From positions 62,001 through 126,000 of the forward strand of contig JAJDYE010000016.1 of NCBI GenBank assembly GCA_022822905.1: DNA of 64,000 nucleotides, in the 5' to 3' direction. Positions 40,471 through 43,306 of the stretch are shown here, piece by piece. The stretch is from Acidimicrobiia bacterium. GTDB lineage: Bacteria > Actinomycetota > Acidimicrobiia > Acidimicrobiales > Bin134. The stretch's first letter is position 1; every line of letters starts with the position of its first letter. The notes under the pieces were generated by a model that was not told where the DNA came from, searched no databases, and saw nothing but the letters and a program-made list of their open reading frames with translations. A program made the position numbers and the translations under genes.

Positions 40471-41511
40471 ATGAGCCTGATCACGACTGCCGACACCATT
40501 GAAGAGTGGGTGGAGTTGGCCCATGCCGAAGGGCTGACTGACGGGTTGCCGGTGTATCCCCCCACCCGCGCCGCGGTTGACGCCTTGGTGGAGGCTTCGG
40601 GCCGCGATCACGGCCAGCTACTGGGGGCCATCCCCCCGAGGGGTGGGGCGGCCACAGTCGAGGTGGTGGCAGCCAACGCGGCCATGGCCGGCTGTCGGCC
40701 CGAGCACTTCGAGGTGGTGCTGACCGCCGTTGAGGCCATGCTGGAGGACCGCTTCAACCTGCGGGGGGTGGTCACCACCACCCATCCGTGCTGGCCGCTG
40801 GTCATAGTGTCGGGACCGATCGTGGAGCAGCTCGACATGGCCCATACCGAATCGGTGTTCAGCGGTGGCGGGGCCCATGCCAACGCGGCCATCGGCCGGG
40901 CCGTCAAGCTGCTGTTGTGGAACGTCGGCGGGGCCACCCCTGGCGAGCCGGTCAAAGAGGTGTTCGGCCACCCAGGCCGCTATGCCTTCTGCGTGGCCGA
41001 GTCGCCGGCCAGCCCGTGGCCTCCGCTGCACCAGGCCCGAGGCATCGACGCAGTCAGCGGGATCACCGTGTTCGCCTGCGAGTCCCCCACCAGCGTGGCC
41101 ATGTGGGGCGCCGACGACACGCCCGTCAACCGCCTGGCGCAGTTGGCCGACGCCATGGCCATCAAGGGGTGCAACAACACCCACACCATGGGCGAGACCC
41201 TGGTGGTGCTCACCCCCAATGAAGCCCGCCACATGGCCGAAAACGGCTACGACCGGGCCGCCGTGCAAGAGCAACTCTGGCAGCAGGCCCGGCGGCGCAT
41301 CGGCGACCTCCTTTCCCCCGGTGTTCCTCCCTATGCGTGGTGGCCCGACTGGGTGGACACCGGTGACCCCGACACGCTGGTGCCGGTCACCGAGAGGCCC
41401 GAGGACATCCACCTGATGGTCACCGGGGCCGAGTCCATCCCCTGGATGGCGGTGTGCGCCGGCTGGGGCAACCTGGGCGGCTACGCGGTGAGCCGAGCGC
41501 TGGATGGTTAG
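40471..41511 (+). CDS. Conserved protein encoded beside the UGSC selenoprotein
   Basis: 346 aa. I do not know an established function. Motifs that look conserved: GLPVYPPTRAAVDAL near 24-38, ANAAMAGCRPEHFEVV near 68, HPCWPLVIVSGPI near 103, ANAAIGRAVKLLLWNVGG near 130, and KGCNNTHTMGETLVVL near 232. From memory, similar proteins stand next to UGSC-family genes in other genomes. Three Cys near conserved motifs (C75, C105, C234 approximately) could meet the selenol/thiol of the partner. No signal peptide or membrane helix. ATG 40471 is four bases after the amidohydrolase stop. Confidence 0.8.
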   Translation: MSLITTADTIEEWVELAHAEGLTDGLPVYPPTRAAVDALVEASGRDHGQLLGAIPPRGGAATVEVVAANAAMAGCRPEHFEVVLTAVEAMLEDRFNLRGVVTTTHPCWPLVIVSGPIVEQLDMAHTESVFSGGGAHANAAIGRAVKLLLWNVGGATPGEPVKEVFGHPGRYAFCVAESPASPWPPLHQARGIDAVSGITVFACESPTSVAMWGADDTPVNRLAQLADAMAIKGCNNTHTMGETLVVLTPNEARHMAENGYDRAAVQEQLWQQARRRIGDLLSPGVPPYAWWPDWVDTGDPDTLVPVTERPEDIHLMVTGAESIPWMAVCAGWGNLGGYAVSRALDG

Positions 41512-41529: not shown

Positions 41530-42078
41530 GTGAAGTTGGTCGGCGAGCTAGTGGATCCCCGGGGCCAAGTGGTGGTCAACCAGGACGCTCTGGCGTCCCG
41601 TCGAGGCCACACCCAGGGGCCGCTGACCATCGGTTTCCTGGTCAACGAGTACAACCCCTCGTCTGGCCCCGACTTCACCCGCTACACCGAGGTGCTGGAG
41701 CAGGAGTTCCGCAACCGCCTGGACGTGGACGCGGTGGTCCGCCAGCACAAGCCGGTGCTCAGCCGCCCCGCGGGCGACGAGATGCTGGCCTCATTCCGGG
41801 CCTGCGCGGGGGTGGTCAACGGCCTGGCCAAATGAGGCTCATGCACGTCGGGCAGTGTGCTCGACGCCGTGAACCTGGAGAGGCTGGGCATCCCCACTGT
41901 CACCGTGGTGACTGAGCCCTTCACCGTGGCCGCCGACACCGTGGCCCGCTCCTTGGGCATGCCCGACGTCCCCCGGGTGGTGATCCCCCACGACTACCTA
42001 AGCGAGGACACCGACGCCATCGCCAAGAAGCTCGAGCCCCTGCTCGACGAGATTCTCGACCGGTTGCTGGTTCGCTGA
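41530..42078 (+). CDS. UGSC-family selenoprotein (TGA at 41833-41835 read as Sec102)
   Basis: 182 aa when the in-frame TGA is read as selenocysteine; a simple reading stops at 101 aa. GTG start at 41530. Around the TGA the protein reads CAGVVNGLAK-U-GSCTSGS, the U-G-S-C motif that names this family; the frame then runs on with good coding character (VLDAVNLERLGIPTVTVVTEPF, split here by nothing but sense codons) to TAG-free end at TGA 42076. A bacterial SECIS hairpin follows at the right distance (separate entry). The Sec and the Cys three residues later could form a selenenylsulfide redox pair. No signal peptide is visible, so a cytoplasmic redox or detoxification role with the 40,471 partner is the best guess. 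Confidence 0.9.
41846..41866 (+). promoter_or_regulatory. Bacterial SECIS element
   Basis: Hairpin of eight consecutive pairs: 41846-41853 with 41859-41866, all Watson-Crick but one G-U wobble (41851 with 41861), closing on the loop AGUGU (41854-41858). Counting U of the UGA as 1, the loop is nucleotides 22-26 and shows G23 and U24, the same positions contacted by SelB in the E. coli fdhF element. The bulged U17 of fdhF is not reproduced exactly. Confidence 0.85.
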
Positions 42079-42097: not shown

Positions 42098-43306
42098 CTA
42101 CGAACTCTGCTCTTGGAATTCCTCGGGGCTGAGGATGCGGCCGCCGTCTTTGAACAAGATGTCGTTGTAGCCCTGGCCAGGGGGGATGAACTCGGCCCAG
42201 ATGGGCTTGTGGTAGCCCACATAGATGGTGCGGCGTCCGCCGGAGGCGGGGGCGGCAGTGGGAGGCGGGGCACCGTGCATGGTGTGGCCGTAGTGGACGG
42301 TGACATCGCCGGGCGAGGCGCTGATTGCCACCGTGGGCCAGTCATCGCGCACATGACGAGACCGACTGGACGAGTCGCTAGAACCAGCCAGGTAATGGAG
42401 CTGGCCGTTGGCCTCAGAGCACTCGTCAAGCTGGATGCCGATGCTCACCGTGGGACAGGTGATGGAGTGCCCGCCGGTGCCGCAGTCCCGGTGCCAGGGC
42501 AAGTCGGCCATGCCCTCCACGATGCTGGGCAGCTTGATGACCACCGAAACGCCGTCGCCCCTCTCGGGATAAGCGGCGAAGTCGTCTCCGCCCAGCGCGC
42601 CGATGGCATCCAGACGATGATCGCCGATCAGGCTGAGCATCAGCTCGCTGCGGTCGTCCATGTGGGTCACCCGGCAGCACACCTCCTCGCCATCGGCGTT
42701 GGTAGCCCACCAGGAGCGGTGGTCGTCGGGGGTGGCCTCGCTTCGCTGGCGCTCCACCTCGGCCCGCAAAGCGTCGATCTCCTCGGCGCTGAACACGCCA
42801 CGGATGTGGAGGAACCCGGCCTCGTTGAGGTACCGGCCCATCTCCTCGTGGTCGTCGTCGAGAGTGAAGCTGCGGGACAGGTCCACCGTGGGCTCCCATC
42901 CCTCGTACAGGGGACGGCCGTGGTACATGGCCAACAGCACCGGCTCGAAGTCCTCGAACAGCCCGAAATCGCCCCGAACCATCTCGGCAGCCTCGGAGTA
43001 AAGCAATCCGACCCAGGTCCACAGTTCGGCCACGTAGTTCGACCAGTTCTGCTCGCTGACCTCCACCACTAGCTCGGCGTCGTCACCGGGCCGGATCTCA
43101 ATCTCACCGTCGCCCACCACATAGGTCTCCGACCGGCCGTCGGTCAGCCGCCAAGCAAAGCTCTTGACCAAGGCGCCTGAGCCGATGCTCGCGGCCAACG
43201 CCCCGTTGCCCTCGGCCAAGAGCCGGGGCAGCTCCTCTGAATGGAATTGTTCGAAATCCAGGGTGTCAAACAGAGGAAGACGGGGAGCGTGATCCACTAC
43301 AGCCAT
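42098..43306 (-). CDS. Phytanoyl-CoA dioxygenase (PhyH)-like protein with SCP2-like N-terminal part
   Basis: 402 aa. Residues 1-140 resemble a sterol-carrier (SCP2-like) domain in pattern (FAWRLTDGRSETYVVGDGEIE; LLYSEAAEMVRGDFGLFEDFEPVL, both split at domain edges). Residues 150-395 are a PhyH-type Fe(II)/2-oxoglutarate oxygenase: iron ligands H272 and D274 (PWHRDCGTGG) and probable H344 (GHTMHGAPP). The fold predicts hydroxylation of a lipid or terpenoid held by the carrier domain; the SCP2 call is inference. Second gene of an operon after the SDR at 43,352; convergent with the selenoprotein. Confidence 0.85.
   Translation of the reverse strand: MAVVDHAPRLPLFDTLDFEQFHSEELPRLLAEGNGALAASIGSGALVKSFAWRLTDGRSETYVVGDGEIEIRPGDDAELVVEVSEQNWSNYVAELWTWVGLLYSEAAEMVRGDFGLFEDFEPVLLAMYHGRPLYEGWEPTVDLSRSFTLDDDHEEMGRYLNEAGFLHIRGVFSAEEIDALRAEVERQRSEATPDDHRSWWATNADGEEVCCRVTHMDDRSELMLSLIGDHRLDAIGALGGDDFAAYPERGDGVSVVIKLPSIVEGMADLPWHRDCGTGGHSITCPTVSIGIQLDECSEANGQLHYLAGSSDSSSRSRHVRDDWPTVAISASPGDVTVHYGHTMHGAPPPTAAPASGGRRTIYVGYHKPIWAEFIPPGQGYNDILFKDGGRILSPEEFQEQSS

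Follow-up and report, generated by a model that had tools for sequence, protein, structure and literature searches.

A UGSC-family selenoprotein gene of an Acidimicrobiia bacterium and the gene that accompanies it

Does the in-frame TGA at position 41833 end a gene or encode selenocysteine (Sec), and what would a selenoprotein do at this locus? The TGA lies in a window of 64,000 nucleotides, the whole stretch of DNA that was analysed. A standard ORF list cuts the locus in two, 41530-41835 (101 aa) and 41857-42078 (73 aa), as the sequence-only reading made earlier had expected of a gene caller. The frame from 41530 to 42078 on the plus strand is open both 5' and 3' of the TGA (41833-41835), and read-through gives a product of 182 residues, which starts at a GTG (41530), consistent with the family alignment, and ends at a TGA stop (42076-42078). 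The codons TGA-GGC-TCA-TGC from 41833 form the motif U-G-S-C at residues 102-105, with the predicted Sec at residue 102. The product matched the UGSC family PF24696 (E = 6.4e-35, 121.3 bits, cut-off 25) from residue 6 to 179, corresponding to positions 1-170 of 172 in the profile, and this match runs across the TGA. The match to NCBIfam NF041046 (E = 3.3e-26, 92.1 bits) was below the curated equivalog cut-off of 125; this model may be narrow because the Pfam UGSC model matches 27 of 27 aligned family members. The flanking coding sequence, the motif and the family named in the sequence-only reading all agree with these results. That reading had also given UGSC proteins as a published selenoprotein family from Sargasso Sea metagenome work. 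The family is published: the Global Ocean Sampling paper of 2008 (PMC2398784) has it among its five largest, but the name UGSC is absent from the text of the 2005 paper on the Sargasso Sea. Members are recognised by the motif [U/C]-G-[S/A/G]-C with an in-frame TGA or a Cys codon, which the window gene carries. Judged by its sequence, it is a new, ordinary member of the known UGSC selenoprotein family (PF24696).

Sec decoding requires support from the genome, which was searched as 3.8 Mb in 42 contigs (95.65% complete). A tRNA-Sec with the anticodon TCA was found at 67.5 bits, above the cut-off. The selA (402 bits) and selB (302 bits) genes adjoin each other on contig 12 and exceed their curated cut-offs, and selD was found with E = 9e-107. 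The set of SelA, SelB, SelC and SelD is complete, which bears out the earlier supposition that the organism decodes Sec. The selD gene (C5:52458-53402, minus strand) itself has one in-frame TGA, near the N-terminus in the context GAG-U-AGK, which we take to be the usual Sec/Cys site of SelD. SelD of this genome is probably a selenoprotein too.

Comparison with related genes also speaks for decoding. Exactly one TGA is present in each of the genome's six UGSC genes. The orthologue from a second species of the genus (L062) keeps the TGA. The 81 codons 3' of it show 16 synonymous and no non-synonymous differences, and the codons 5' of it show 23 synonymous and 9 non-synonymous ones. This pattern of codon differences shows purifying selection on the protein part beyond the UGA. 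SelB scored above its cut-off in all 20 tested genomes with a TGA-type UGSC gene, in 2 of 10 with only the Cys type and in 3 of 10 without UGSC. Two smaller genomes of the same genus (G181 and G242) have SelB, and both the UGSC gene and its partner gene, described below, are absent from them; the UGSC/partner module seems to have been gained or lost as a whole within the genus.

The sequence-only reading had described an eight-pair hairpin starting 14 nt from the UGA. With the U of the UGA as base 1, bases 14-21 (CGUCGGGC, 41846-41853) pair with bases 27-34 (GCUCGACG, 41859-41866) in eight pairs including one G-U, and enclose the loop AGUGU (bases 22-26, 41854-41858), in which G23 is at 41855 and U24 at 41856. 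RNAfold returned the same hairpin (41846-41866, plus strand) at -19.9 kcal/mol, with A22-U26 additionally closed. The z-score of the hairpin was -2.27 (43-mer) or -2.53 (66-mer) against dinucleotide shuffles and -2.83 against codon-preserving shuffles of the window gene, 2 of 200 of which were as stable. The bacterial SECIS (bSECIS) model (PMC13188914) has a loop of 3-9 nt with a G in the first two loop positions, mostly followed by G or U, a stem of 4-16 bp, a distance of 16-37 nt from the UGA and a minimum free energy of at most -7.5 kcal/mol. With its AGUGU loop, eight pairs, 18 nt from the UGA to the loop and -19.9 kcal/mol, the window hairpin lies within every one of these constraints. 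An Rfam scan of the 64,000-nt window gave no match at gathering scores.

Is the hairpin conserved as a SECIS? Folding energy against codon shuffles was tried as a test over the homologues and rejected as too weak, with mean z values of -0.95 (TGA-type genes) and -0.94 (four Cys-type genes). Because folding stability fails to separate the two types, codon and covariation tests were used instead. Bases 23-24 are GU in 101 of 115 distinct TGA-type sites from many phyla, which share common ancestry, so that the counts are not independent events. In the same set, the 21-27 pair is C-G in 61 sites and G-C in 47. Since base 27 occupies the wobble position of a Val codon, a swap of this pair is silent on that side of the stem. 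In 41 of 41 cases with C at base 21, base 27 is G, and in 28 of 32 cases with G at base 21 it is C. The Ser codon in the loop is AGT in 89 of 93 cases, whereas outside the loop these genes use AGT for 4.9% of their Ser codons; Cys-type genes with Ser at the loop position use AGC (4/4). Over 40 representative sites, six of the eight stem pairs changed on both sides, with a covariation score of 0.298, which none of 500 shuffles reached and which compares with 0.016-0.115 for slid versions. The lower three pairs (14-34, 15-33 and 16-32) are less conserved. These codon and covariation patterns show that the hairpin just 3' of the UGA at 41833 is a conserved bacterial SECIS.

Two other readings of the TGA were considered. 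It might be a sequencing error or a genuine stop, so that the locus would be a broken gene or two short genes; assembled metagenome-type sequence carries this risk in general, and a gene caller would split the gene in just this way. Against this, the same TGA stands in the same-genus orthologue with no non-synonymous change 3' of it, and it recurs in six of six paralogues and in the 115 distinct relatives together with the covarying SECIS. We regard an error or a stop as refuted for practical purposes and give it hardly any weight. The TGA might also be recoded genome-wide to another amino acid, e.g. Trp or Gly, but no support for such recoding was found. Ordinary genes here end in TGA, including the window UGSC gene and other UGSC copies. 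TGA is read through only at a site where relatives have Cys and where a SECIS follows, and the genome encodes SelA, SelB, SelC and SelD, which makes recoding just as improbable. Because the Sec apparatus is complete, the SECIS is conserved and selection is purifying 3' of the UGA, we are nearly certain that the UGA at 41833 is read through to 42076 via Sec-tRNA delivered by SelB. Five independent lines, namely the machinery, the TGA in six paralogues, the codons of the orthologue, the SelB profile and the SECIS, indicate that this TGA almost certainly encodes Sec.

What the selenoprotein does is a separate question, and here the neighbouring gene is informative. A gene for a protein of 346 aa (40471-41511, plus strand), which we call the partner, ends 18 bases upstream of the UGSC gene. 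The sequence-only reading missed that the genome has five more UGSC genes besides the window gene and that each of the six has a conserved neighbour. All six adjoin their own copy of the partner, of about 345 aa, three upstream and three downstream, and no further partner copies were found in the genome. A search of the partner and its relatives against Pfam and NCBIfam with E up to 10 gave no family, apart from single chance matches among the relatives, and PDB sequence searches with UGSC and with the partner gave nothing usable.

The pairing extends well beyond this genome. Public genomes were searched with the partner alone, and 70 of 80 named loci, from many phyla including Chloroflexota, Pseudomonadota, Rokubacteria, Acidobacteriota, Actinomycetota and one haloarchaeon, have a UGSC gene in the stretch around the partner. 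A UGSC match was missing at the other 10 loci, some of which are incomplete. TGA is carried by 73 of the 75 UGSC motifs recognised at partner loci, and the two Cys-type ones belong to Natrialba asiatica and to a Sphingomonas. When all loci are taken together, 125 partner copies have a same-strand UGSC gene no more than 300 nt away, with both gene orders represented. In 28 pairs the two genes are in a single open frame with no stop between them, and these are natural fusions or candidates for such. Of 296 genomes from the class, 106 contain UGSC and 107 the partner, and the two sets are nearly identical. These gene-level counts show that the UGSC gene is paired almost without exception with an adjacent gene of about 345 aa. 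A literature search did not find the near-obligate pairing, the six-fold expansion with partners or the GrdB link discussed below described. The tie to one specific protein family, sometimes in the same chain, offers a concrete handle: the pair should be purified, not the selenoprotein alone. A Cys form of the pair is present in the isolates Variovorax sp. SRS16, Arthrobacter sp. ERGS1:01 and Natrinema zhouii, in which the partner is automatically annotated as a hypothetical protein; these isolates permit tests of the pair without selenium.

Other neighbours are less constant. An amidohydrolase gene (PF04909, 39390-40466, plus strand) ends 4 bases before the partner gene and is probably in the same operon as the partner and UGSC; in the same-genus relative L062, the gene that precedes the partner was not recognised as an amidohydrolase. 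Downstream, on the minus strand, there is a PhyH-type dioxygenase gene (42098-43306). In L062, a protein with the same N-terminal start is at the corresponding place. Genes for thioredoxin and thioredoxin reductase were found near the pair at 1 and 2 of 106 loci, respectively, and such a neighbourhood was rejected as a rule because it occurs at no more than 2 of the 106 other loci. Neighbours of this type were seen in Arthrobacter (trxB-trxA-partner-UGSC) and Variovorax. On a plasmid of Arthrobacter sp. ERGS1:01 (L192, 1725-5869), an apparent operon comprises a phosphosulfolactate synthase homologue, trxB, trxA, the partner and a Cys-type UGSC gene, and a phosphosulfolactate synthase homologue is also near the pair in Natrinema zhouii (L193). 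These may be a hint of an organosulfur substrate. TctC-type carboxylate-binding proteins were found in 15 of 106 neighbourhoods, and other neighbour families were scattered. TctC-type genes are common in betaproteobacteria, and since the TctC-bearing loci are mostly betaproteobacterial, we did not use them as a clue to the substrate.

Structure models were predicted for both proteins. Strands and helices alternate in the UGSC model (pLDDT 90, pTM 0.85); Sec102 directly follows the third strand, where helix 103-118 begins, and Cys105 is one helix turn beyond it. In the model, this would be the usual geometry of a selenol nucleophile and a resolving thiol. The structural neighbours of the UGSC model are receiver, Ras-like and flavodoxin-like domains, with no thioredoxin among the matches listed. 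Such common alpha/beta matches show no function, and they lend no support to a thioredoxin-like fold, which the protein might still have. The partner model (pLDDT 94, pTM 0.93) had no clear match when compared with PDB structures by Foldseek and VIA-align (best Z 5.4, best E 3.4e-3). High-ranking entries included class I fumarases and cyanuric acid hydrolases, but their TM-scores were below 0.35 and no fold is claimed from them.

A distant similarity to a known selenoprotein was found at the profile level. With hhalign, UGSC aligned to the C-terminal Sec region of glycine reductase selenoprotein B (GrdB) with Prob 83 and a score of 44.1 over 81 columns, Sec to Sec; the best score among 100 column-shuffled profiles was 24.7. 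PF07355 (GrdB) was not found among the families matched by 27 UGSC members with E up to 10. Because the likeness appears only in profile-profile comparison, UGSC is not classed as GrdB. The partner was also considered as a GrdE homologue, which was rejected (Prob 0.2); because the partner is unlike GrdE, the pyruvoyl-type mechanism of glycine reductase cannot be carried over. The window's own genome has a GrdB/PrdB-like gene (L032, C6:9709-10128, minus strand) with an in-frame TGA in the motif U-P-L-C (...ILTPV-U-PLCTRT...), and similar genes with the TGA at the same place are present in other genomes of the phylum. On its sequence, this gene would be a second type of selenoprotein gene in the genome. 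Genomes of the same phylum also contain full-length GrdB genes (L163-L174, e.g. L164) with the motif U-G-T-G-T-R-C, which adjoin GrdE-like genes, and open frames of the DVKNFCAAP... type just 3' of these GrdB genes look like further operon members.

From the gene pairing and the models, we lean towards the view that UGSC and its partner of about 345 aa constitute a two-component selenol-dependent reductase. UGSC and the partner would form one enzyme. Substrate binding would fall to the larger partner, and the bound substrate would be attacked or reduced by Sec102. The selenenyl intermediate would then be resolved by Cys105, and the selenol restored by a cellular dithiol, e.g. thioredoxin. The distant likeness of the Sec domain to GrdB favours a reductive cleavage of a small organic substrate, and the presence of six diverged pairs in a single genome suggests that there are several substrates. 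Alternatively, UGSC might act alone as a thioredoxin-like UxxC thiol/selenol oxidoreductase, with the neighbour merely in the same operon. The literature gives UGSC a likely Trx-like fold and a redox role from its UxxC (PMC2398784, PMC13188914), but the best neighbours of our UGSC model are receiver, Ras-like and flavodoxin-like domains, and the partner is too constant for a mere operon neighbour, up to the 28 pairs in one open frame. We consider that UGSC acting alone is unlikely. UGSC and the partner may tentatively be seen as an undescribed selenoenzyme class, a proposal that we hold at somewhat less than even confidence. In such a class, a relative of the GrdB Sec domain that stands by itself would be joined by a substrate-binding protein of an unseen fold; the pair would have spread over many phyla and been duplicated, each copy with its own substrate, and this genome would have six such copies.

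How does the pair compare with known systems? With the UGSC family (PF24696/NF041046), the window gene shares the whole-length match, the UGSC motif, the Sec at the conserved position and the SECIS just 3' of the UGA. There is no categorical difference; what sets the window gene apart is a score short of the NCBIfam cut-off and the presence of five further copies in its genome. A fusion of UGSC with an unknown conserved domain, Unknown_1, has been noted (PMC2398784), and Unknown_1 was given as limited to some aquatic organisms, whereas the pairing of UGSC and partner is the rule in our data. Unknown_1 is possibly the same as the partner, which is in frame with UGSC at 28 loci here. Compared with GrdB (PF07355), UGSC lacks the long N-terminal part and the PF07355 match, and its partner is unlike GrdE. 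What UGSC appears to share with GrdB, together with the proline reductase PrdB, is a distant likeness in the C-terminal Sec region and the arrangement of a Sec subunit acting together with another protein.
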